A stretch of DNA of 64,000 nucleotides from Acanthochromis polyacanthus (taxonomy: Eukaryota; Chordata; Actinopteri; Pomacentridae), in assembly GCF_021347895.1 (NCBI RefSeq), contig NC_067125.1, positions 5,722,268 to 5,786,267 of the forward strand. The letters run 5' to 3'. The translations under genes were made by a program, and so were the position numbers. Below the pieces are notes generated by a model, which had not been told where the DNA came from, searched no databases, and worked only from the letters and a program-made list of their open reading frames with translations. Below, in pieces: positions 655-21,600 of the stretch. The stretch's first letter is position 1; every line of letters begins with the position of its first letter.

Positions 655-3600
655 CTGTAAAACAGACAAACAATAGTAACATGAAAGACAAACTGCATCG
701 ACAGGTCATGAGACATTATTTGGACATGGGGCGTGGCACATAACAGAAAGCTCCTTTCTCTGCTCAGTAAACATCATTCTAATATGACCACTACTCTATG
801 TTACTTGCTAATAGATTTGGCTAATTCACTTCATTGGAATCCATGACCAAGCTGCACATACCTCTAGCAAGGATCAAAAACAGCATCTTCAGTGGTAGAC
901 AGGTATTTCCCACCTGTACCCCAAAATAACTTCTAACAACACTGTTACAGAGGCCCACGATGGAAGACGCAACCAGTTAGCAGGCCCAACAGCTGCAAAG
1001 TTTGATAAAGTATCTTCAATCTGATCTAAAGGTTAGGGCTGAATAGGGAGGGAAATTTCTTAGGAATCCATTTAATGGCTGTGGAGACATTTACCTCAAA
1101 ACCATTTTCAACCGCAGGGTTGGCACTGGAAGAAAGGTCAAGAGGCTCACTGTGGTCAGTAGGATTCATCAACTAAATTTTGTGCCAATGTGTCCAGTAG
1201 ATGCTGACACATTTCACAGATGTGACATAATATTTCACTAAAGCCAAAAAAGTAGCATGTTCACCTTCTACTTTAGCAAAAGTCACATATCACCCATGTC
1301 ATTGCAATTCTAGCCACCACAAAAATGCAGTATTTAGTCAAACAGTTAGTATGATCTTTCAGTCTAATGTCACTGACACGCTGACATATTAAAAAAAGAA
1401 AACTGTAAACCCAATAATGGCATAAGAGAAAAGTTGCAGGTGGTGATTCATCCCATGAGGAACACAAATGTCTGAAACATCTCAGTCACTATTAGATCAC
1501 AATGACATTTTGTACAAGTGTTGCATTGACACTAGGGCTGGCCCGAAGAGTGGTTTCTGGTCTCCGGATATTCGGGACCTATTAAAGACAAATATCTGAA
1601 TATTCGTTCCACCCCGTAACGTCCGGGGGTGGGGGTGGGGGGGTGGGGGGGTGGGGGGGTGGAGTCTGAGTACTTGGATCCTTTCGTCTTGTGTTTATGC
1701 AACGAAGTGAAGCGTGACGTCAGAGTCGGCAGGAACCCGGCCATTTGGGTGGTGGTAACAAACACAACGGGATGAGCCGAAGTGGGCCGAAGGCGAAGGT
1801 AAGAGACGAGCTCCGAATATTCCTGTTTTCGTCTGGGGGGAGAAGGGGGTGATCACATAGACATATGTGTATGTTTATGTGATCACACGAAGGCGGAGGG
1901 AAGACAGTAACGCCGCATATTCTTTCCGACCGGTAACGTCCGACTGGTGCGGGGGGGGATTCGTACCACAATTAATATCCAGATACCGCAGTAGCGAACG
2001 AATATTCAGATATTCGGGTCCAGCCCTACAGACCACCATTGCTCATGTGGTTATAAACAGATCAATATATATTACATGGAGAAAATAAAGGGTTAGGTGT
2101 TAAAAAAACAAAACAACTAACATTTATAAGCTTATGATAACTTCCACTCTCAATAAACAAGCTTCTCTTATAAGTGATGGTGTTCTACGTGAACCCAGTT
2201 TTTGACTAAAGGTAAAACACTTTTGGTTTCTGCACACACAAGACTTCTGTACTATAATCAGGGTGTCAAGAGTATCGATTACACAAAACAAACAATCTAA
2301 AGACGTGACCTTTGTCTCTGGAATATTGGAATGAATGAAAATGAACCTTTATTTAACATTTTATAGACTGAAAGATTCAAAGTCATCGTTCTTGTTAACA
2401 CAGACTCCAGGAGTGTTCAAAATGCACAAACGCCTGAGAAAAAACACTGGTTTGTTCATATCTTGTGACATATTACCCCACAGGAACTAGGTCCCAGATC
2501 CAGGTCTCAGGAAAGAACGTTCTGACGGTCTTCTTATTCTCCTCCTCTTTCTCTCTCAGGACACCACCAGAGTTCTGTGGCATCATGTTGAAGGCCATAG
2601 GAACAGGAGAGTCTACGACATCTAGGAACACAAGGATAAAAACAAAATCAGTACACAAGCATACTTACCCAACAGAAAACAGCTCCCAGATCCAGGTCTC
2701 AGGGAAGTGTGTTCTAATAGTCTCCTTGGTGTTTCCAGCAAGCTGATCATCAGGAGAATGAAAACGTCCACCCGCCGGCGCTGCAATTAATAAGCCTCCA
2801 TATTACAGTGACTGGTAAGGTAGTTATCACGGAGCATATATTCAACAGACAATACCCGTGACCAATTATAAAACATACCCGCATCAAATAAGATATAATC
2901 GTAGGCTCTTTCACGGCAGTCATGAGGTTTTTTCACATCAGAGTTCGTCATGATTTTGATTCCAATTTCCTAGAAGTGGGGAGCGAAAGAAACAGGAGAA
3001 GCCATAAGATATATACCATTCCATCCTTACAGATGACACAGAATTACACAGAGGACAATTCTTCAACTCAAGTGCTCTGCTTTAAATAGAAATCTAACTG
3101 GTATTAACAGAGACAGAGATTGAAAACAAAGTGAAAACTGAGATAGAAATGAGGTGAGAGAGACGGATCCAAAGCAACAGAGAATAGAGACACTTGGTCA
3201 CAGCAATGACAGGAAAAGAGAGAGGACAGACATAAAGCTGGTAAAGTTAAAACAGACAGATACAGGGATGATGGAGTTGGACAGATTGCTGGAAAAACAA
3301 ATACAAAGTATGCATAGTCCCGTCTAAATTTACAGTCTGATGCAAATTATTGATCATTATTACTGCCAATATCTACTGAAGCTGATTAAAAAAGACAAAT
3401 CTCTACTTTAAAGATGCTGTAGACATCATTCTTCTGATCAGAATTTCCAAAGAAGACGGATCGTGAGCCTCGATTAAGTGCCCGAAACTTGGGAGCACTG
3501 TCTTGTGCTGCTGTTGGTGCTGCTGTTGGTGGTGCTGCTGGTGCTGCTGGTGCTGCTGGTGCTGCTGCGATTTCAATCTCTGGCTCTGGTACTGGCATGC

Positions 3601-6600
3601 GGAAGCAGGGATATGGCTCGAAGTCGTCCACCTCGTAGGAGTAACCCGACAGCTTCTGAACAGGCAGCTGGCTGTACATCTGCACAGAAACACTCGCGTA
3701 AATGATGATATTGATGTAAAAACCTAAACCTGCAGAGTCCACAGGAGTCACCTGAATCTGAAAAGACAAGCTGTAATCAAAACATTTTTTATGTTCAATC
3801 CTAACTGGTCAAAATGCTGTTAAGAGGAAAGCTATCAGGCCGCTTGTTTTCTTTACGAGTCTACACAACAAATCTTTAACGCTGATAATGTCGTTTACAT
3901 TTTATCAGAGTAGTTAAATAATAAGGGGATCTTCTGAAAAAGTCTTATTTTTCAAAATCCACACTGGATGGCTGAAAACAGTTTTTGTCACCATTCATTT
4001 GTGTTTAAGCTGCACATCTTGAGTCAACAGAGAATTCCAGCTAAAGCATCACTCAGCAACAGAACTGCAACGTAATGAGAAGATGAACCATTTTTAACTG
4101 GCTTTGAATCAGCAAAAGCAGCAAAAGAGCAGTTGATTAAAACTTTAAGAGAACACAGCGTGGCTCCACCAAAAATCACACAGGAAGACGCAGAAAATGG
4201 TGGGAGCAGTGGTCTAATGACTATTTCCAATGCTACATATATTCCATATTACCATCAGTAACTTAAACCTAGTGGTAAAACAGGGTAAGGTTAGTGGGGA
4301 CTGTACAATTTGAGAAATTTAGAACCATAACAGGCTATGATGTGGGTTGTACTCAGTTTGATATGTCAGCATTGAGTGGGAGCTTAACCAAACTGAAATG
4401 ATTTTAATATGTACAGTGTACCAAAAAGCATTTATTTGTAGGGAAAACCAAATTGCGGTGCAGTTTTGGACTGGATAAATTACTACCATGTTCTACTTTT
4501 GCCATCTGGGAGATTGACACAACACCAGTTCTAAAGTTTGGACACAGATGATTGCTGTCATACATAGTCGACACTGAGTTCCTGCTCAGCCTGCAGCAGG
4601 AGGACACTCTGGTCGATCGCTCTGACGGAGCACATGGAACCTGGGTGAGCCTGGAGGCTCAGTGTGGTCTTCTCCGCTGGAAGCTCCTGGAGAGATGAGA
4701 ACTTCAAAGACACCTGCACAGGCGACAGCAAGTTGGAGATTTATTAGCTTGGCAGCAGATTAAATCGAATTCGTTCACCTCATGTCTGTTCCCAATCTAC
4801 AATACACGTCTTTGTACTTTACTAGTGATGGAAAAATACTGAAGATTGTCCAGTCCGTGTGATTCTTTTTCACCCGCAACTACATATTCAAGTTGCACTG
4901 TATTCTTCTAATGTGGTGATGAGCTACCTTGTTGTTAAGGCAGAGCTGAATGGGGAAGTCCAGGCTGTCGGCCACAGCCTCTCCACTGGGCATCACAGTG
5001 TAAACTACCACCTGGGCAAATGGTGCCAGATTTGTCATCTGACTGAGTGGTACGGACAACTCTCCTTTGTTGACTGAGGCATGAAACACAGAGAGACAAA
5101 GGGATGTGACATGTAGCAGCATGGCATTAATATTAAAATACAAAAAACACAAACAATATTCTCTTGCTTTGCCAACATGTACAAAGAATAAAGTACTACG
5201 TCAGCCTGAAGCCCACCTTGACAACAGGCAACTTGTGATGAGCTTCAAGCACTTGACAGTAGGCAATAAAGACTAATAGTGGACTTATTCTATCTTTCAG
5301 CTATTGTTAACAAATCCCAGATAAGATGAACACTAAAAGTGTAGGCCCAGTACTTCCAGTCTTTCCCAGTGTCTCTGTGGCTGTCAAGCAAACATCTTTT
5401 ATGCAGTATTTTCTGACATCACTGAGCAAATAAAATGGTCTGAAGAAGCTCGATTTCTGCACCTTCTTTAGGCTTCAGAAACTCTGGCTTATAAAAGAAT
5501 ATGGTGGTGCAGGACTTTTGGCTGGAAGACCAGGGTTTGAGGCCTGGTAATGGCTACAAATCCATTTTTACATTTGCCTTGAAATGTGTGCTCATGCGGT
5601 AAAAGGGGCTTATAGCAGAGACAGGAGATGGAGAAGAACTCCTGTTGGCAGAACATAGTCAATGTTTGCTGTGGTCGATTTTATGGGATCCTTTGACAGT
5701 AAGAGAATGATAAAATTCTTAACCCTTCTTCTTATGCTTTTTATTATTATTATTATTTATTATTACTCGATCTTTGTACTTTTAGGGTTTAATGTTTTAC
5801 ATATTTTAACCTTTATTTTAACTTATTTTTACATTATTTATTTTATTCTATTTATTTATTTCAGTCCTAGTGTTCCTCGGTGCCTCGCCATGTCTTGATG
5901 ATGTCATGTTGTGTGGGTGTGTGAGTGTGTGTGTGTGTGTGTGTGTGAATGGCTGTCTATATGTAGGGAGGGTGGAGAGTTGTTTTGTTGTTTTTTTTTT
6001 AATTGTATTTTTTTATTGCCTTCTTTGTTTTTAATTCTTGTAAAGGACTTTGTGTTGTTCTGCATGAAAAGTGCTATACAAATAAATAAAGTTTAAGGTT
6101 TGAAAACATTACCAGGCTTAGTCTTTAAGGTGAGCATTTGTCTTAATTGTTCAAAAAATATTAGCTTACCAGTTCCTGCTTTAACAGTCACTGGGACACG
6201 ACCGTTTAGCACAATTGCTCCTCTGGACAGCACCTATAAAGAAAAACAAGGCAGGCAGAGAAATGTATCCATGCACACTATCGTTCAAAAGTATTGGGTC
6301 ACCAACACTTTTATTCATGTGCTAACATAACCGCACAAGAGTTTTCTAATCATCAATGAGCCTTTCAACAGCATTAGCTAACACAATGTAGCATTAGAAC
6401 ACAGGAGTGATGTTGCTGGAAATGTTCCTCTGTACCCCTATGGAGATATTCCATTAAAAATCAGCTGTTTCCAGCTAGAATAGTCATTTACCACATTAAC
6501 TATGTCTAGAAAAAGCTGATTTTCTTTCAAAAATAAGTACATTTCTAAGTGAACCTAAACTTTTGAACGGTAGTATATGTTTCACACATAAATGATGAAG

Positions 6601-9600
6601 AATTCTATCATTTTTTTTATACATTTGTTGAAAAAAAAAAACAGTTCTGTTGATTTCTTTGGCAAAAGACTGCTGAGACCCCGTCTCCTGTTTGTTTGTT
6701 GTTTAGGTGGGTGAGATGTGTGATCTGAGTGCAGTGTGGACGTTACAGCCAGTCTCTGTGATATGATGTCTATCTACATTCAGTTAATACAAACAAACTG
6801 CAAACAGATGCATATGACCAGATATAATTCTAAAAGTGTAAATACATTTACCAGGGATGTGTTAAATGATAGATAATAGCTCCTATACCACATACCAGGT
6901 AAAAGAAGTCGAGGACCTCCTGTCCCTTCTTCAGCTCATCCCCCTGGATGATGTACTGAGCACGCACAGCTGTATCTTTGTCACAGGAGAGCTTCCCTTT
7001 GACCTGCATGACCTTCAGAAAACTGCTGCTCTTGGAGTAGAATGGTGTGACATGGTGGTGGGCTGACCTGTATTCTGGTCTCCGTAGATTATGCACATAT
7101 GGATGATGATCCGTCGTATTTTTGGAACTCGCCTGTTGACAAGGTCAAAGACCATTTTTTTCACTCCAATATAAACCTCCAGTTTCCAGACATGACCAAC
7201 ATACAGACTTCCATCCTTCCTACACTCTGCTGCTAGCTCTTTCCATACCTTCAGTCGGATCTAAATATCAAACAGGCGTCTTTTAGGTATCGGGGATCAT
7301 TTCATTTGAGCTCAATTTGAAAACCTGGCTTTGATGAATCCCAGTGTGAACTGAGCAATACACAGTACAATCACAGCAAATTGAGCAGGAGACGCCGTAA
7401 AAAGATCCAGTCTGAGACCAGCAGGAGTCTCGTTAAAGGACAGACGAGTGTCTTTCATTCGGAATAACTGATCTCCAAGGTGAAAGTATTTTTATTTCTT
7501 GAAAAAAAAACAGCGATTATATCCGTTGACGTCAGCTCTTTTCACTAGATTTTAGGCAATTGTGGGCTACCTTTGAAATGATAGATACACCAATCAGGCA
7601 TAACATTATGACCACCTGCCTAATATTGTGTTGGTCCCTGCACTGCTGTCAAAACAGTACACCTGCACGGGTCCACTACACCCCTGAAGGTGTGCTGTGG
7701 TATCTGGCACCAACATGTTAGCTGGAGATCCTTAATGTTATGGAAGTTGTGAGGTGAGGCCTCCATGGATCAGACCTGTTTGTTCAGAACATCCCACAGA
7801 CACTGGATTGGACGGAGAGCTGGGGAATTTGGAGGCCAAGTCAACACCTCAAACTCATTGTTCTCCTCAAATCATTCCTGAACCATTTTTGCTTTTTGAC
7901 ATAGCACATTATCCTGCTGAAAGAGGCCACAGCCATCAAGGAACACAGTTTCCATGAAAGGGTGTCCATGGTCTGCAGCAATGGCCATAGGTGGGTGCTA
8001 AGTGTTACAGTAACATCCACATGGATGGCAGGACCCAAGGTTTCCCTGCAGAACATTACCCAAAGCATCACACTGCCTCCACCGGCTTTCCTTCTTCCCA
8101 CAGTGCATCTTGGTGCCATGCGTTCCCCAGGTAAGTGATGCAGACACAGTGATCCAGCCATCCACATGATGTAAAAGAAAACATGATTCATCAGACTAGA
8201 CCACCTTCTTCCATTGCGCTGTGGTGGTCCAGTTCTGATGTCCACTGTTGGTGCTTTCGGCGGTGCACAGGAATCAGCATGGACACCCTGACTGGTCTAC
8301 AGCTATGCAGCTCCAAACACAACAAACTGCAATGCTCTGTGTATTCTGACACCTTTCAATCAGAACCACAATTAACTTCTTCAGCTATTTGAGCAACAGT
8401 AGCTGGTCTGTTGGATCAGACCACATGGACCAGCCTTCAGTCTCCTCATGCATCAATGAGCCTTGGCCGTCCATGACCCTGTCACCGGTACACCACTGTT
8501 CCTTCCTTGTATTACTTTTGATAGATCCTGACCACTGCAGAGCAAGAAAAACCCACAAGAGCTGCAGTTCTGGAGATGCTCTGACCCAGTCTTCTAGCCA
8601 GCACAATCTTGTCAAACTTGATCAAGTCCTTACATTTCCCATTTTTCCTGCTTCTAACACATCAACTTTGAGGTGCCATAATGAAGACAGAATCGGTGTT
8701 ATTCACTTCACCTGTCAGTGGTCAGAATGTGATGCCTGATCGGTGTATGAGTTTAATTCAATCTTGATGGTAAAACTGATGAATACTGAACTGGTTGTTA
8801 AGGAAAGTCCTTCATGTAATTGACTCCACTGAAACTAAAATATCCTTGGAGACAACAAATCACTACAGAAAGCAGTAGCTTACCACCAGGTAGATGCTGT
8901 CCTTCCAGAGCGAGGTGTCCAGAGAGAACAAAGCCATACCTTTCCCGTCTGTGGTCAACATTAGTTTTTGTAACTCCCCAGCAGACAGGTACACTGGCTC
9001 ATTGGAGGCTGGTTTATTGTCCGGACCGACCACTTTGATCTGTAAAACAAATCAGAAAATAAGAGCAGGATTTCAGGATGCATCTAGATGAAACATTCAT
9101 CATTCTCTATTGCTGGAACAATTATACATTACAGTGCTCCAGTCCTGCTATAATGGTGAACTTTAAGGTACTGATCATCGAAGGTTTTCCACCCATTACA
9201 AGAATGAAGATGCATCCTTTGGTTAAATTATTATTACTAACTATCCACACACTATCCAGTCAGGTAGAATTTGAAGTGCTGGTTGCATCAGAGGTATGAA
9301 GTCTCCAAATTTTCACCAAAATTTTCAGAGCATCAAAGTAAATCCAGGAGTTAAGTCCTTCTCATTTTCTACACAGATTCATTTAGGTGATGGACACAAA
9401 CCGAGGGCTGAACAACTCATCAATGTCAAATAAACAAGAACATTTGAACCTAACAGCAAATCACAAAGGCTTCAGTTTGGGATATAACACTTGCAGCTGA
9501 TAAATATTGAGATTAATGCTGTAATTCATCATTTAGTTCAAGCAGACTGAAACATTTAGGGCTTGTTAAAATGTCCACTATGACTCCACTAAATATAAAA

Positions 9601-12600
9601 ACCCAGTCTCAGTGTCCAATAGCCACACCTCGTACATTTTGCAGTTCATCTGACCCAAGGGTGAAGGTGTCATGGTAGTGGTTTGACAAATTCATGCTCT
9701 CCTTTTGTGATGATCACATGTTTTGATGATGTCTCATGTGGTAATATTTTATCACATTTTAAATCTAATAGGCAAAGAAAATAGAAGTTTGATTTTTGCA
9801 GACACATAAAAAATTATATTTTCCCCCAAATCATTTATCTATATGAAACTCAAAAGTCCTTTAGGTGAGAAACATTCAGTCACAAAGCTTACAATCTGTC
9901 CTGTGCACTGTAGGCTCATGTAGAATCTCTATTTACATCAGTTCATTTGCTACAGATCTGTCTTCATTCCACTGATTGGCTACTTTTCCATGACAATCAT
10001 AACTGACGCTTATCTATTCAGGAGCTATCTGTCATCACCAATCTGATGTCTCAGCAACAGTGCTGGGATGATTAAAACTGTTCGACAAAGAGTATTTTAC
10101 ACTGTCTGAGAATAAAGCGGTGTATGGAGAATGGATGGATATTGCTTTTATTTTATTTTATTAAATGTTAAGAAAAAAACAGCAGCTCCTCCTCCCACTT
10201 TAAAAAGCACTTACAGCCTTTCACAGTCAGAGACCAACTTCCCTTAAAGTAGCACATAAAACCAACCTAGCTGCTGTGTTTCCATGATGTTTGTCATTTC
10301 CATTCATTTTCACAGTTTCAGTGTTGACTGGAGCTTTTTCAGTTCCATCATCTAATTGTGCATTCTTTGATGCACATCAGATGGACGTTTATCACAAACT
10401 TTTTTTCTTGAAATTCAGCAAAACAAAATTCAGCAAAAATGTACATTAGATTTGGATAAAAAAATTAAAAAAAACTAGTGAATGAAGCAAGCAATTGTGT
10501 GCTAGCAGCTCTTATGAGCCCGTACTTGAACCTGTACAAAGTAATGATTTGAGCTACTTAGCCTGTCAGCAAGCTAACATGCCAACAGTGTTAGCATGCT
10601 GATCTTTACCAGAAATACACCACCGCTCAAAAGTTTGGGGTCACCCAGACAATTTCATGTTTTCCATGAAAACCCACACTTTTATCCATGTGCTAACATA
10701 ACTGCACAAGGGTTTTCTAATCATCAATGAGCCTTTCAGCACCATTAGCTAACACAATGTAGCATTAGAACACAGGAGTGATGGTTGCTGGAAATGTTCC
10801 TCTGTACCCCTATGGAGATATTCCATTAAAAATCAGCTGTTTCCACATAGAACAGTCATTTACCACATTAACAATGTCTACACTGGATTTATCATTCACT
10901 TCATATTATCTACATTGAAAAAACTGCTTTTCTTTCAAAAATATGGGCATTTTTAAGTGACCCCAAACTTTTGAATGGTAGTCTATTTACCAGGTTATTT
11001 TAGTGAGCTAACATTCAGCTCTATCAGCTTAGCAAATGTTAACATACTTCACAGACTGCATCAAAAGTGACTTGCTGATGCAGTGCGTTGCACTGAATTC
11101 AGGGAACTATTAAAATCATGAGGATTCATTCCCTGGGCTCCATAGATATCTGTACCAAACACCTTAGCAATAGCAATGATAAATGCCAAGATAACCTTCT
11201 AAAACCAAAAATCTCCACCTCACAGGCAGTGCAAAAGAAAAAGTCAGAAGATCCCAATAGCATAATTGTGGGGATGAATCCTGCTGATGTCTGTAAAAGT
11301 GCTACAGAATAAAAGATTCATACATCTCTGTCCAGTGCTGACAGCAGACTGGTCATTCATGAGACTGATTACCTTTCCCTCAAACGGGATGCCAGGCCTG
11401 TATGCTGCAGGAACATCCTCAAAGCTGACAGTTCTGATGTGGCTGTTGAAGGTGGCCCTCCCATTGCCTTTAAGGATGACCCCTAGATGGAAGTCAACAT
11501 TTGGTTACAACCCATGAGGAACTAGTGCTGCTAACAGCATGAACTGAATCTGGCTATCAGTCAGCCTACCTGTGCCATACTCCTCCATTTCTGCAGACAC
11601 CTGAAAATTGTCAGCGTACATGGTCTTGTCGAGAGCAAATGCTGTCAGATTCACAGTTTGCGTAGCACATCCACTTTTATCCGTCTAGCAGACAATTAAA
11701 AGGTAAATTGCAATTAAAATATATACATATATGTGAAAGAGGACTGTCATTACAGCAAGTGATATTTTGTTTACGTTTGGGATACTCACAGTCAAGTGGT
11801 AAGTCCTGCAGATGTCAGGTCCTGCGGAACGTGAATACCAGTAGCGGACAGTGCGTCGACAAAACTCTGCCTTCACCGAACCAATAACTGGCTTTCCATA
11901 GGTGTACCTGTTGGAAATGACACAAGAATGCAGAGACTGTTATTGCAGGAAATGATTAGATCATCTCAAATGCAGATCCCATTCTCAAGACTGTTCTGTT
12001 TAAGTGGGACACTCACTTTCCACAAACCCTAAGCGTTGCCTCCTCATCCAGGATGGTTATCACACTGGGCAGCTTCACATTTACTTCAAACTTTGGCAAA
12101 ACTAAAGCAAAAGAAACAGAAATGAGGTCTCCCAGCTAAAAACTCACATATAGAGTAATTACTTTTGTAAATGAGATATTTCTGTGTTTTGTTTAAAACT
12201 ATGCACCACACCATATTCCTTGATCTCAAAGCTGTGAGATATTTCCTCTCCTTTGTCTGTTAAGGCAGTGATCATGTAGGTTCCTTGTACCGCCTCAGGT
12301 ATCATGGGGTGTGACAGGTCGAGGATGCCGCTAACAAGGGCCCTGTCCAACCACTGGGCAATGCGATTGGAATTGGGATCCTGCATACATCAAAGAGAAA
12401 TGCACACGTTTGAAGGCTGCTCCATTCTGTATGATGTTAAATGTGCTGTGTGTACAATTGTAATCAGATTACTGCATCGTTTAAATTACACTGATCGCTT
12501 AAATTTTTGTTCATGACCCAGTCTACATGTAGCTTTCCGGTGGTTCATCTCAGTGACCCTGAACTGGACAGTGCTGATGGCACAAAAAGGTGAAAAATTA

Positions 12601-15600
12601 AAAAGATTCTATTCAACATTATAAAAAGAACTTGGTGCAAAAAATTCTATGAAATCTTAAAAGAGCATTTCCTATTTCAGTGACAGGTGTATTACACAGA
12701 TAGTTTGACAATAACTATCAAAAATGAACACGGTTTCATGAGGTTATCAAATGTGGGTCGTGCTGTGTACGTTGAAGCCGTGTACAGAGAACGGATGGAT
12801 GGATAATCGTTGTTTGTCGGACAAATGTGTTTATATTACCCGCTGTGGTAATCACATCTGAAAGCGGATTCATGAGAATCTAAGCTTTCCATCGGTGTAT
12901 AATGTTTCTATCATCGAGTTGGCAGTGTCGTTCTATTTCGAAAAATGCTTATGCAGATATCAAAACGGAGCCACCCGCGGGCCGCTGAACCTTAACGGGT
13001 TTTAATAAGTGATTGTTTACATAATAAATAATTCTGGAATTTGTAAAGACATGATCATAATGAACACTGAAAAACAACTTTTTAACTTTTGATAAAAATG
13101 TTTACAAGATGTATCCCATGGACTTCAAAAATCCCTCAATTATACATTATGTGTTCCACATTCTAACCGTTGCTTGAATAATCTGTAATAAGCTGTCAGA
13201 GGGGTACATGAATGTAATTTGGGGTGACCAGCCAACATACATCATAAAAATCTGTCTTGACGAGTGCCTTTTGTAGCTGGACAGGAGACATCAGGGTCCG
13301 AGGATTTTAGCTGGCAAGCGGTTTCTGTTTATTGAACATTCTTATGCATTGCTCTCCATAAATTTCTCACCAAGACACCCTTACTTTCAGCCACATCAGA
13401 AGTGATAAAGCTCCTGTGCAGCTTTTCACTCAGAAATGCATCAGCCTGTGAAACCTAAAGCAACTGGAACTGCTAATGTGCAGTGCTGCTGGTTTGACTT
13501 GACATGAGGACCTTTACTGCATGTCATAACACCCTCTCTCTCCCTCCTCATTTCCTGCCTGCCTCTATTCTGATGCTCGCAAATAAAAAGGCAAAAAAAT
13601 GCCAAATGAACCCTTCACAAAGAAAAGGAGCAATTCAGCAGTTTTCAGGAAAACGGTCTCATTTCTTTCTAATGCAGATGAATGGGTGGCATTTTAAGGG
13701 TTTCTTACCTGGAGCGCCACCTCCTTGTACTGAAACGAATGAAAACAATTGATTAGCTGCACATCAAGATTCAAGACCTTTATTTATCACAAACACAACT
13801 ATATATAGCACGATGCACAATGAAATGCACTGTGCACCTGTACCAAACCGAAATAATGATAAAAACACACAAGAAATATGTACATAAACACCCCCTGTCA
13901 AAAGTTTTAGGACACTTTCTCATTCAAATAAAGTAGAACCTGTCCTACAACTTTTGACAGGGGGTGTATCTACCAAATTTGGTACACATATGCAGCACAT
14001 TAGGCTGAACAAAAAAAGTCAGTGACAGCCACATTCCAAACCCAACAGGAAGTGAGCTATTTTGCGTTGAATGTCAGATTTTGCCCATTTTTCATTTTTT
14101 TTCTAGAGCGAACTCCTCCTAGGGGGAAACTCCAATTCACCTCAAATTGGGCCAGTACATACAGGAGGCCTTAATGATCCAAAGTTATTAAAATCTTTTT
14201 CCAAAGTCAAAGGGCGTGTCCGTGGCAGCCTCTGGAATTTTGATCCTTCACCATGAAATTTCAAATGCTGTGTAAATGTCCTGAACATGCTCCAATCTGC
14301 CTGAAACTTTACATGTATGATCAGAGTCCTGCCCTGATCACATCCATATGATGAAATACACCCCCTGTCAAAAGTTGTAGGACAGGTTCTACTTTATTTG
14401 AATGAGACAGTGTCCTGAAACTTTGGACAGTGGGTGTACATGTATAGATAGACAGCCAGACACTAGCAAAATAAAGTGAAATAATGCAAACAACATATAA
14501 ATACACACACAATATATTATCTGTAATATGTTATCTATAATTTAGACAAGTATCTCATCATCTGGTCATGTGGAGAAAAAAACATTTGGGAAAGCTTTCA
14601 ATAGTATCTGTATTATGTTAGGTTCAAATGACAACCTGACACAGGAGGAAAAAGCATCAAGCATCAGAGTGTAGACGGTTATGTCTCAGCAACTATTTAT
14701 GACTCCACAGTCACTTCATTTGATAGAGCCACTGTCACATCAGACAAACATCGTTCAGTCTCAACCTGGCACTGGCCCATTTTTGGCAGTCTAAAATCAT
14801 GCAAAACACACTGAATATTTTAATTAGACAACAGCCATAAAAAAAAAAAAAAACATTTTGGGTTCGAGTATTTGGTGTTTCCAGCTCATAAAGTGTTGAA
14901 ACAAGCACATGCATAATGTGACGTCTTCATTATAGCTGATGCAATTCACCTCTTCCCAGCAAGCTACTTTCATGCGATATATCTGAATGGATTTTACGTT
15001 TACTGCGTGCAGTCATGTTTTCATCCTCTCATCACAAACGGAAAAGGCCTTGAGCTGGTATTGATTCAGATGTTTGGGTCAAATGCAGTGTGCGCCAAAT
15101 GAACTCTGACAGCATGTTTATCACACTACTCCACACAGCGCCTCACACCCACGCTGTCTCCAAAATCAACAAACAGCCCTCCGTTCACCTCCCACTCCTC
15201 TGAACCAAAATAGACCTCGCTCTTCAGATTCACTGGCTGCTCGGTGGAAATCACAGCAGATTAGAAAGTTCACTGGTTGAAAGCTCTACGCACGTCACAC
15301 AATAATTATCACATGGTCTTAACAGGAAAAAAATAAGCAGATGGAACTCACCACTCGACTAACGGGGATGAAATTGGCATCAAGGGAGACAATCCGAAAC
15401 TGGACTTTAAAAAAAAAAAAAGGAAGGAATAAGTAATCAGTCTGTATGTAAGTGTAGAGCAGGAAAGGTAATAGGAAAACAGCAAACTACTACACACAGT
15501 GTTTTTACAATGAGACAATTCTGCAAAAGTTCCTGGTGATGATGAATTCTGTAAGATTACAACAAAAGATGACAGAGTGGCAGAACGTAACAGTACAGAA

Positions 15601-18600
15601 ATAAAGTCATTAGACACAATACAGCAATTCCGAACTTTAACGCCAATACGAAAGAGATTTTTAAAAAGAAAAGTCAAAATTACAGAAGGCAAACTGATCC
15701 GCATTTCACGTATGGATCCAATATCTGAAAAAAAGGATATTTCCCATAATGCAGTGCTATGCAATACCATATTTGTTGGACTCCCTCTGCTCAGTAAAAA
15801 CCCTTAGCATTAAAAAAAAGAAGCTCAGAATCCCAAGTTGTGACAACCCTAAAGATTTTATTTTTTTTACCTCAGACCTGATAAAAACTGCACCAGAGCT
15901 GCAGGAGACTAGCCTAGCCCTGCTAGACCCATGTTCTGAAGGCACAGGGGTCTAGACATGCTCGACAGGGAGGGAGGCGGGCTAAAAGGTTGTCTATCAA
16001 ATCCCTCTGCAGCAATTGGGTAGGTATACAACCAATCAGCGCAACGAATAGGCTCCTAGAGCGCCGGAAATCAGAGGATGCGGCAGTTCGGTGAAGCCTT
16101 ATTTGTACAGTCAATGGGTGAAGCTCAAGTATATTACAGACATGGTAACAGAAAGATTATTCAGAGTTGGTGCTAATGGAGCTCAACGACTGTTATCGAC
16201 CCTGGCAGAGAATTAAATTTGTTGCTGTGGGTTGTCTAGCGCGGCTAGGCTAGTTGTTTCTGTCAGAATCGTCGCGCCTCTGTCGTCACTTAGTTACGCC
16301 CTCCTTCTGACTCTACACTTCATGGTGATTCGTCCGGCCAGTTTTAGGAGAATCCAGCCTCGAGCCTTATGGAGGGTAACTAGACCCACCCTGGCAGAGA
16401 ATTAAATTCATTGCTGTGGGTTGTCTAGCGCGGCTAGGCTAGCAGGAGACATTACATCAAGCCGTTCTCTGTGCTAACCACGTCAGTTTTCATGTGTAGC
16501 AGTGATTGTGGTGGCCTTTTAATGATGAACTCATTTTAAATGTGAGGATGTCTTTTCTTGTCAGCTGGAGACTGGCCTATAGACTTTAAAATTGTGTTGC
16601 AAAGACGTAGGTGCTTCCTGGTAGGAGGGTTCTGATGACATCCATTGACCCTGCACTGAAGACAGAACACATGCCTACTGAAACTATAAAGTGTGTAGGG
16701 TTGTACGCGGCATGCACACAACTGGGATATACTACTTTATCATAACATTTGCCTTAAGCTTTGACCGCCTTGTTCACACATCCACTGCCATCTGCAGGCT
16801 AAAATATCCTGTCTGTGCGTTCTCTCAGCTCAGCCTTGTGAGCCACTGTGACGCGTCCCCCACTGGTGCTGAGGATTTGGGGTCAGAATGGACAGAAAAG
16901 TATTCTGCACACTACAAAATGGGATTGGATATAGCAGGGTCTCGCAGTGTATTCAAAAGATACTAAATCTTTTTCTGACATATGTTTTGCTGATATGGGT
17001 AACGTAACAAACCCTTATTTGCATTATGGGGCCATGCTCTGTCTGCCTCTGATGCATCCACGTCAAACCGTCTTTCCTAACTTGAAAGACATCAACTGTG
17101 GAATATGTGTTAAATTAAGTGGGTGGAATAACCCTTTCATTACACCAGTGAACAGCTGTTCAAACTACTGTCTCAAATGGACAGGTGTTGTAAATTTGCA
17201 AAAACTAAATTCAGTGTGTGTGGCTCTTGTGCGTAATTGCAGGTGTATTCATTAAATGTTATCTAAATTGTTTCTTTCACATGGACACAATAATAGCATT
17301 AGAACTACAGGCAATCAAAAACGCGTTGTCCCAAACATTACACACACAACAAATACATAAAAAGGCAACACAAACAGAAATAAAACACTTTTTCTGCGCG
17401 TGATATTTTATAAAGCTGATAAAAACAGTCTCTACCCAGAACTGTTGAGGAATCACCGTGCTTCTGTGCACTGAATACAGACATAATTCCTAAAGTTGTC
17501 AAGTCGCAGCTCAGCATTATGCAGATGGAGTAAAGTAGTCCAAAATTATGCAAGTACAGCTGAATTGGTAAGTAGTGCAGAGTAGACGACGGGTGCTAGA
17601 GGAACAGCAGAGTATTAGTCATTCTAGCAGACAGGAGGAAGATGCAACGCCTGCAGACATCGTCCAAGCGAGCAGCAGCAGGTTTAGCGACTAGCACCTG
17701 AATTCATGACGTTAGACACCTACCAGTCTGCCCAGGTTTGTAGATGGGTTTATCAGTCTGGACGACATGGATGAAAGCAGGAGGCTCCACGAGGACTTTG
17801 GTCTTCTTGCCCAGTGAGGCGTTCTCACCCTGAATTGTGACTTGAACGCTCGCCACAGTCCTCCGGGGCACTGTGGGGACCTGCAACACCAGCAAACATC
17901 TGTCACAGAGGACTGGGAGATATTTGAAAGTTCAGGATGAGAGAAAGGAAGAAAGGAAGGAGGGCCACGCTTTAAAACTTGCTTCATGCAGAGGCACAAT
18001 TTGTGCTTAGCTGGCGAGCACTTCTCTAAATGATCCTTCTTTGAAGTGTTTCTGCTGAAACGTCTGTCCCCTGAAGTGGTGGAGAGCAACGGCTTGGAAG
18101 CAAACCCTTCAGAGCTCCGCTGATATTGAGCAACAGCAGGCCTCTTCCACGAGGTTAATTATGAAATGTCGTCATCCTTGTATAGCATATGTTTTCACTT
18201 GCTAATGGAGTTGCTCTTGCATAACAGGGGCTGGAACCACTTCCAAAAATTTCAAAGGGGTGTTTTTTCAGATGTGTGTGGGGAGCCTTAGAGTAAGGGG
18301 AAGTGGGTGTTCTGTGGAGGAATGCAGGTAGATGGCTAGCCTCTGGCAGAAAGCGGTCTTTGTTTAGTTGCAGGAAGACAAATGCCAGAGCAGTCCTGCA
18401 GCACAGCCAAACACTGGGGAACCGAGTGAAACTAAGCGCTATTGTCACAGAGCTGATTGGGGTCGGCGGGTCGTTCCACATCAATATGGAGCAAGACCCG
18501 AAGGTTGCATAACAGCGAGCAGCGGTGTGACAGAAACCAGAGCAGTCATTTAAAGAGACCCACTGGTGTCGACAGCCTCAGTCATGGCGCCGGCTGGATA

Positions 18601-21600
18601 ATTAGGTACATAATTATGCCAAGATTTGTGCCATTACTCTAAATGCGCAGCAAGAGGAAGAGGAGAGGAAATATGTTATGCTTGGAAACCTCAAGGATGC
18701 ATTTAATCTCTGCAAACATTAAAAGTTTAGCCCTGCTCTATTCTACTTCACTGTTACTAAAAACCTAGAAGTGAATACTACAAAAAAAAAAAGTATATTT
18801 GAAGAGATAACTCCCTTTTAATAAATTTTTAGAAAACTTTTTTATTGTTTTTTTACTTGATATAATATCAACAAAACTGAAGCTGAGTGGATTTGACTGA
18901 GTAGAAAACATGACAAAAAAGAGAAAAATAAATCATCATTATTATTATTATTAACTCAGGCAAACAAAAAAACAAGTTTTCTGAAAATTTATAAAGATGG
19001 AGTTATCTGTTTTTGCAAATAAACTCTTCATTTGTACCTGAAATATCACACGTCTGTCTGCCACTTGTCAAAATGTACGTATGTGCCAGGGTAGAGACTG
19101 CGATTTGGTAGAGTTGGAGTTTCTACCAGTAGAGATTGCGATTGTAATCTCTACCAGTAGAAACTCCAATTCAGTTCAAGTTGCATTGCCTACTGGTGCA
19201 GCTCTGAACTAAAGTCACACTTCAGTTTGAAACCAAAAATATCAATATTTAATGGTATTTCTGGTTTGCGTCCACTTGATTCTAGTATAATTGTTCTTGG
19301 TTATTGATAAGATAAATCGCATAATAGCACTATATGCAGGTGTTGGATGTTTCCTTTCAAACTGCTGTGGTGACATTATTCCACTAACGGGAATACTGGT
19401 AGGATTGGAGTTTCAACTGGTAGAGATTACAATCGTAATCTCTACTGGTAGAGACTCCAACTCTACCAAATCGCAGTCTCTACCCTGACATATACATGTG
19501 GAGTCTGACCTGGAAGCTCAAGCAGCGGTATAAGTCCTCCTCGACTTCCTCCTCGAGGATGACACTGTTGCCAAAGTCCGTATTGAGGGTGATGTTCAGA
19601 GAGACGGGCTGTGTGAGGCCGTGGATCAGGGCACATAACGTCTCCTGGTTCCCTGCTGTCACACGGGAGCTCACAGTCACAGCAAAAATACTGCAGGGAC
19701 AAAAAGAAAGCAGAAAACACACTTGACGGAGAAGAAGACGTGCTGCCGATCAATCGGAGTAAAACAGGAAAAGAAAATTAAGTGCAACAGTTAAAAAAAA
19801 GAAAAGAAAAAACAGACCAAATGGATCCTTAAAAATTTTGGCTTATTAATTCGCCAAAGACCACGGTGGAGTTATGTGACGATCGGTGTACGTTTGTCCA
19901 CCTGTCTGTCTGTTAGCAACATCACTCAGAAAGGGACAAACGGATTTGGATGAAATTTTCAGGGAAGGTCAGAAATGACACAACGACCTGGAAATTAGAT
20001 TTTGGGAGTAACGCAGCTTATAGATATGGATTTGTTAAAGATTTCTGTATCATTGCGAGATAGCTGCACGGCGTCACTGTAACCATGACAACAAGAGAAC
20101 ACTACATCAGCTGCCTGCTGACGAGCACATGACCATGATCCTACTACAAATCCACCACTGAGGACCACACATTCCTTTTTAAATTTCATCCGTCAGAAAT
20201 GATACGACTGAACAGCCTTGGCGGAGTCCTGCACTCCGAGTGCTTTTTTTTGTTGTAACTGTGACAATGCTTGTATTATAATTATTGGAACTCAATGGGA
20301 CTGAGTGCTTTAGAGAATAAATACAACTGTAATTTTACTGATGTATATTCCCATTTCGATTAAACTTGATGTCATTTTTAAAGTCACGTTTCAGTTCAAT
20401 ACGGTAACAAATTTATACGTGTGATAGAGAATTGCCACAGAGACACAATCAGAGGCCGTTGTAAAGCTATTGACATGACACTTTAAGCTCTGGAGCACAT
20501 TTACAACAGATATTCTAAATTGCTGCGTTATGATTTGCTAATTATATCACTTCAAAATGCAACTTTGATCAAAAATCAAATAATTATTAAGCCCTCATCC
20601 TCACTGAGGGCTTAATAAACAACACAAAAATTGTTCAATTCATGTGACAGAATAGTCCAAAAGTACAATAAATATGTTTATAACAGCAAGTGGTAATATG
20701 AAAGTTGTAATTATTTTTGACAAATCAAAGAGAATAACTACACTTCTTTCAGTGTCACTGCACAGATTTTTGCTGTTTTTCAGTATTTTTATTTTTTTAC
20801 AACAGCTGGCTGTAAAAAGCCACAAAACACATGAAGAGTTCATTTGCAAAAACAGATTACTCCGTTTTGATAAATTTTTAGAAAACTTTTGTTGTTGTTT
20901 ACTTGAGATAATATCAATCAAACTGAAGTTGAGTGGATTTGACTCAGTAGAATACATGGCAAAATAGAGAAAAAATAAATTATGAGTGTCATTATTATCA
21001 TCTCAAGTAAACAATAAAAAAAATTAGTTTTCTGAAAATTTATAAAACGGAGTTACCCGTTTTTTGCAAATGAACTCTTCACATATTCACACATTCCCTG
21101 TTCAGCACCAAGTACCTGAAACAAACATGCAGCTAAAAAGGCTAACCGCTAAGGGCTAACTTCTCTAAAAATTAATCGGCTGTTCGTGGTTAGACAGACT
21201 GGTGACCTGTCCAGGGTGTCCCCTGCCTTCGCCCGAGTCAGCTGGGATAGACTCCAGCACCCCCCATGACCCTAGTGAGGATAAAGTGGTGTATAGAGAA
21301 CGGATGGATGTTCGTGGTTAAAAAGTCCAGCAGGCCAATCCATTTCCAAAGATAAAGACGGTTTTATTTGGGGAAAAAAATACATTTTGTCCACTGGATA
21401 ATAAAAATAAATGTTTCTCAAGACGCTGTTGTTTTTGCCCATGTAGTCGACCGACTCATCGTTGTTTCTATTACAGATCAGACACTACTTTAAGAACTGT
21501 TAAATACATTTAGCTATAGATTTTTTTAATTCAATAAACAGATGGCATTTCTTAATCCATGTGGTTTATACAGTTTTGTGGATTCTGACAGGTTTTGTTT

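Follow-up and report, generated by a model that had tools for sequence, protein, structure and literature searches.

Tandem bait-region exons, probably spliced as alternatives, in an alpha-2-macroglobulin gene of Acanthochromis polyacanthus and in other spiny-rayed fishes

The DNA analyzed here, a 64-kb stretch of the Acanthochromis polyacanthus genome (C13:5722268-5786267, hereafter the window), carries on its minus strand the first part of an intact and apparently working alpha-2-macroglobulin (A2M) gene. Our main reading, which we hold at a probability of about 85%, is that this is a functional fish A2M gene in which the bait exon has been duplicated in tandem and the two copies, 18a and 18b, are spliced in a mutually exclusive manner. 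Exon 17 would be joined either to 18a or to 18b, and the chosen exon to exon 19. The two mature inhibitors would differ solely in the C-terminal, larger part of the bait, the b isoform having an old and conserved bait with a 10-residue run and the a isoform a fast-evolving one. Thus read, one gene can probably make two differently baited inhibitors. The finding is stronger than the first-pass annotation of this DNA could know: the arrangement is common to other spiny-rayed fishes.

A protease that cuts the A2M bait, a region expected to be disordered, springs the trap and exposes the thioester. Because bait cleavage springs A2M, the isoforms would be expected to respond to different proteases and at different speeds. 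Both isoforms are presumably expressed in this species and would presumably differ in protease range. They share the bait start (14 residues), which exon 17 encodes, and only the remainder is swapped, so that their specificities could overlap widely.

Results

The exons of the gene, all on the minus strand, were placed as follows. Exon 1 (24798-24881), located by tblastn with Amphiprion ocellaris protein P0001, encodes a signal peptide whose 28 residues are 100% identical to that protein. A long CA/GT microsatellite lies near this exon, at ~24514. Exons 2 to 19 were placed by splice signals and reading frame, and tblastn with P0001 covers the gene past exon 19. Exons 2-16 (3407-19690) encode domains MG2, MG3 and MG4 and the bait-region domain A2M_BRD, as judged from the gene model, its open frame and Pfam. 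In exon 17 (2879-2969, 91 nt) the constant part ends and the bait begins; a 98-nt intron (2781-2878) separates this exon from 18a. Exons 18a (2669-2780, 112 nt) and 18b (2477-2621, 145 nt, with orthologues among database proteins) both enter in phase 1 and leave in phase 2, and between the 18a donor and the 18b acceptor lies a spacer of 47 nt (2622-2668). The 18a peptide begins with a bait part, the first 17 residues of which are read here, and ends in a 15-residue block; the 18b peptide consists of a 31-residue bait part and its own 15-residue block. Exon 19 (429-654), entered in phase 2, is the downstream partner of both.

Several observations argue that the gene is intact. Matches to P0001 extend over residues 1-1481 of its 1487 and continue beyond the window; residues 851-1481 were matched in the adjoining genome sequence, including PYGCGEQN, which contains the thioester motif GCGEQ. 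The stretches matched beyond the window are 76-98% identical to P0001, apart from the last one (45%), which spans an intron, and the stops within these tblastn rows lie, by eye, in intron sequence at exon ends or between exons. Pfam models MG2, MG3, MG4, A2M_BRD and A2M were found in both isoforms, in order and above the cut-offs, and exons 16-19 of isoform B, the isoform used for this comparison, align across the bait to residues 659-822 of A2M chain 6tav_A (E 1.3e-44). Among the matches listed for a bait-centred query, the best is an Amphiprion ocellaris protein (77%). Elsewhere in the gene, exon 16 (3407-3679) encodes a low-complexity Ala/Pro run of 22 residues before the bait from a CAG/CAC-rich repeat. 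Introns at ~8700-7600, 6600-6300 and 10980-10620 hold interspersed repeat-like sequence, the copies at ~6500 and ~10800 being alike by eye.

The frame allows one bait exon at a time. Across exons 2-19, the reading frame of the part in the window is open with either exon (821 codons with 18a, 832 with 18b). When 18a is joined to 18b, a TAA stop appears at codon 775 of the joined frame; when both are skipped, the frame shifts, the two lengths (112 and 145) each being 1 mod 3, with no stop in the part of exon 19 that was read. Any double or null product would accordingly be predicted to be out of frame. An inner acceptor would start 18b at 2612, giving a 56-nt intron and a b isoform three residues shorter. 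In all of this, the exon coordinates, splice sites, phases, 47- and 56-nt introns and TAA stop given by the first-pass annotation were reproduced.

The spacer itself is likely to prevent joining of 18a to 18b by steric exclusion. At 47 nt it is shorter than the next-shortest intron of the gene model (87 nt), and a pattern search for yTnAy gave only two matches in it. One, a branch-point-like CTGAT (2647-2651), has its A (2648) 20 nt away from the 18a donor and 26 nt away from the 18b acceptor; the other, TTTAT, is 31 nt away from that donor. The 18b branch point would then sit too close to the 18a donor for the two exons to be joined. In a survey of human mutually exclusive exons, a donor-to-branch-point distance of <50 nt was taken as steric interference, a situation assigned to 57 of 629 clusters (PMC5740500). 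Both distances in the window gene fall under this limit, but the human cases are other genes, and A2M or macroglobulins do not occur in the main text of that survey (PMC5740500). Frame alone is an incomplete bar, because joining reads were reported for 83 of 377 human clusters with frame-breaking lengths (PMC5740500).

The splice sites of the two exons differ in strength. The 18a acceptor has the lowest pyrimidine count of the 19 in the gene (8/16) and is paired with a donor, GTAAGT, that matches the consensus at 7/9 positions, like most donors of the gene; 18b has a good pyrimidine tract (13/16) and a donor, GTAATA, that at 5/9 is tied for weakest of 19. This arrangement would fit competition between the exons. 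It may be, however, that both exons are used and that the choice is made by RNA secondary structure or trans-acting factors, the short spacer being a by-product. Control of this kind has been described in insect Dscam and human ATE1 (PMC11802352), and inverted repeats of 11-19 nt surround the bait exons; these repeats are short and imperfect and were counted without a chance control, and the 47-nt spacer together with the frame is sufficient to explain exclusivity. We regard this explanation as rather unlikely in the form of an alternative. Spacer and frame leave the isoform ratio unexplained, so that control by RNA structure or trans-acting factors may be an addition to steric exclusion.

The two exons are homologous, and their likeness is not due to chance. 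A direct repeat covers their 3' halves and donors (2473-2535 for 18b, 2665-2727 for 18a); its 63-nt copies lie 192 nt apart, are 79% identical and stop short of the bait parts, which in the window are 15% identical. The peptides of 18a and 18b score 87 against each other; over the window's 1297 other stop-free stretches (30 aa or longer), the best score of 18a is 34. Silent differences occur at 5 of 11 shared degenerate codons in the 3' halves, which argues that the duplication is not recent. PETWIW blocks were found in 18a and 18b only, on both strands of the whole 64 kb, and exact and relaxed motifs revealed no further bait exon in the window. A bare PETW on the plus strand at 3481 proved unrelated to the bait exons.

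We then compared the exons with A2M proteins of other fishes. A query containing both baits gave 3355 matches, of which 120 fish proteins were listed, and two further searches enlarged the set to 154. Four proteins of >1600 aa (P0122-P0125) were dropped, three of them with two FPETWIW blocks, and 150 were counted; none of these 150 has two FPETWIW blocks. The three (P0122, P0123 and P0124, from Labeo and Bagarius, >1900 aa) look like neighbour-gene fusions or prediction errors.

Among the 150 proteins counted, 17 pairs exceed 97% identity outside the bait but have different baits. An a/b swap accounts for eight of them, six in Anabas testudineus and one each in Sander lucioperca and Scophthalmus maximus; the other nine are variants of one bait type (four Anabas, five salmonid). 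Outside the bait, the a and b isoforms agree at all aligned residues (1414 in Sander, 1407 in Anabas and 1396 in Scophthalmus), with no gaps in the latter two. These isoforms are database annotations, mostly automatic. Anabas P0028, P0032, P0038, P0071 and P0075 show an optional (T)VYAEADAAIE-like segment ahead of either bait, and the end of exon 17 is missing from Scophthalmus P0129, a b isoform, as though that exon had alternative donors.

Such pairs could in principle be tandem gene copies or prediction artefacts and not the products of one alternatively spliced gene. This genome does hold separate A2M genes with different baits, and the pairs of Vanacampus, Hippocampus zosterae and Leuresthes are not identical outside the bait. 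The same-contig pairs of Vanacampus (1133/1380 identical) and Hippocampus zosterae (1176/1396) were set aside as gene copies, not isoforms, and the a- and b-type proteins of Leuresthes look like two genes because they share 1312 of 1377 residues and come from contigs of different size. In Sander, a Pro/Glu repeat ~90 residues before the bait differs in length by 14 residues between P0019 and P0034, so that these two may be alleles, copies or doubly alternative forms. In Anabas and Scophthalmus, however, the rest of the protein aligns gap-free with no differing residue and the listed contig size is equal, and in the window both exons stand 47 nt apart in one intact gene. The copy or artefact explanation is thus largely refuted for Anabas, Scophthalmus and the window, and we consider it very improbable overall.

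Both baits are also present among database proteins of Amphiprion ocellaris, as P0001 (18b-type) and P0121 (18a-type, from a poor gene model), which are identical at 992 of 1082 residues outside the bait; exon 18a is 76% identical to P0121 over 98% of a 52-residue query. The first-pass annotation had named decay of one exon in close relatives as a sign of a defunct duplicate, and had proposed comparison with the A2M genes of other fishes. The opposite of decay was found, with both baits in Amphiprion and in the three isoform-pair species, and the comparison showed the bait pair to be shared with Anabas, Scophthalmus and Sander. Its proposal of mutually exclusive exons accordingly gains support from the tandem homology, the frame logic, the 20- and 31-nt distances from donor to branch-point-like sequences and the isoforms annotated elsewhere.

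When the 150 proteins were sorted by the residues around PETWIW, 74 had a b-type tail (FFP..D), 27 an a-type tail (Y/H..E/Q), 45 the tail YFP..D and four another, the classes not being clean. A 13-letter b motif, searched as a regular expression, occurs in 48 of the 74 b-tail proteins (49 with a second form of the expression), in 27 of the 45 YFP..D proteins and in one of the 27 with an a-type tail (Albula); with the expression used, 26 of 74 b-tail proteins lack it. Among the matches listed, the 26 motif-less a-tail proteins represent 23 named species, including Lampris and Myripristis, all of which we take to be acanthomorphs. In these 23 species the 18a-type segment has its FPETWIW block in frame and tail residues of its own (Y/H..E, often LVSVG). 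Most species show one bait type only among the matches listed, where clustering at 90% may hide the other, and for Lampris and Myripristis only the a type was listed. Exceptions exist: a YFP..D tail lacking the motif occurs in the percomorphs Cebidichthys, Thalassophryne and Sphaeramia, and an FFP..E tail in Thunnus P0030.

Among the matches listed, YFP..D predominates in salmonids, pike, eels and tarpon, where the motif frequently accompanies it, and is likewise the tail of the acanthomorphs Polymixia and Diretmus. From this distribution we read 18b as the exon nearer to the older bait, 18a being the derived copy. In some a baits a trace may persist, as VPEMAFGEM in Stegastes P0024. In a tree of 18 exon peptides, a and b fall mostly apart with moderate support (78), and the Scophthalmus a exon, whose branch is very long, is misplaced among the b exons. 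For these two reasons, the a/b classification was based on tail residues and motif.

The two baits evolve at different rates. Across ten pairs from the five species for which both exons were available (the window, Amphiprion, Anabas, Sander and Scophthalmus), the bait parts are on average 71% identical for b and 33% for a; the latter figure is rough, since exon-peptide starts outside the window were set by eye. The remainder of the protein is 81% identical in six pairs of four species, the window being left out. Constraint is thus little weaker on the b bait than on the protein, while the a bait evolves freely. A 52-residue query for a-type exons returned 24 candidates and only 2 matches, because the a bait varies too much.

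The same data could mean that 18a is a decaying duplicate, rarely spliced, and that the real protein comes from 18b. Of all acceptor tracts in the gene, that of exon 18a is the poorest, and the 18a bait varies freely between species (33% identity). In addition, four proteins (P0011, P0012, P0039 and P0150) come from 5.0-6.5 kb contigs with the complete coding region, most likely derived from spliced RNA; all four have the FFP..D tail and none is of the a type, which indicates that some fishes make b-like transcripts. A dead exon would not, however, be expected to keep its FPETWIW block in frame, with its own tail residues, in 23 named species, and in the window 18a is open with usable splice sites and phases. 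We judge decay of 18a to be improbable and retain mutually exclusive splicing of two functional bait exons as the preferred reading.

Finally, we searched the genome (957 Mb, 81 contigs) for other genes of this kind. The Pfam A2M model gave 16 matches, one of which is this gene; six others were inspected, and the remaining nine were left out. Each of the six loci (L011-L015 on C13 and L016 on C4) has one FPETWIW-like exon, that of L016 being diverged. Paired bait exons were found in none of them, in a six-frame motif search of ~10 kb per locus that a strongly diverged second exon would escape; among these six loci and the window gene, the pair is present in the window gene only. A genome search with the 18a peptide gave eight matches, namely 18a, 18b, the five C13 loci and one at chance level on C14. 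L011-L015 lie on the same contig as the window, at 6.69-6.78 Mb and 23.98-24.04 Mb, and have single, differing baits followed by the tail FFPETWIW(D/G)LVE(V/I)G.

Discussion

Mutually exclusive bait exons are of a known kind and, as far as we have seen, new for vertebrates. In the open full-text literature on macroglobulins and thioester proteins consulted here, from which subscription journals are mostly absent, exclusive bait exons are described only for invertebrates and for no vertebrate. In this respect the first-pass statement that no description for vertebrate A2M was known agrees with that literature, but database isoform predictions already contain the swap. For the insect and mollusc thioester proteins that it mentioned, mutually exclusive or alternative bait-like exons are on record in Drosophila TEP2, the Chlamys farreri TEP (CfTEP) and a snail (PMC7016707).

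A close parallel is that of the snail Biomphalaria glabrata, for which transcriptome data point to alternative bait or variable-region exons in A2M, TEP2 and CD109 and to three BgA2M variants (PMC7016707). Its A2M likewise has alternative exons that encode the bait; it is the gene of a mollusc, presumably of independent origin, whereas the A2M gene of the window is that of a vertebrate and has two bait exons 47 nt apart. CfTEP has six exclusive exons for its bait-like region, with isoforms induced by immune challenge, and Drosophila TEP2 has five isoforms with an alternative bait-like region (both cited in PMC7016707). These are invertebrate TEPs, not inhibitors of the A2M type, and have more exons for this region than the window gene. 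Bait variants of A2M itself are also recorded for arthropods, in A2M-2 of Fenneropenaeus chinensis (cited in PMC7016707) and, from a reference title in a 2026 A2M review, in the tick Ornithodoros moubata (PMC12939704); in the accessible text of that review, the word splice appears solely in this title. Long-read cDNA of Hilsa shad also gave fish A2M isoforms, many of them short or without domains and 4 of 12 with the bait (PMC6650032). A bait-exon swap like that of the window gene does not appear in the sections of that paper considered here.

We tentatively suggest, at somewhat less than even odds, that a two-way bait switch has been kept in spiny-rayed fishes since before the split between Lampris and percomorphs. 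It would consist of a constrained b bait and a freely evolving a bait, with the choice made sterically and regulated by tissue or infection, and it would combine a fixed specificity with the exploration of new ones. Such a switch would be an independently evolved vertebrate counterpart of the bait-exon switching of invertebrate thioester proteins.

The common view of vertebrate A2M is of a single broad trap per gene, with diversity supplied by gene duplication. A splice switch in the bait, if conserved, would open to fishes a second route of diversification. Since a conserved and a fast-changing bait would be carried by one protein, a direct test of what the bait is selected for would be possible. 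For fishes in general, farmed species included, one A2M sequence per species may describe only part of the products of the gene.
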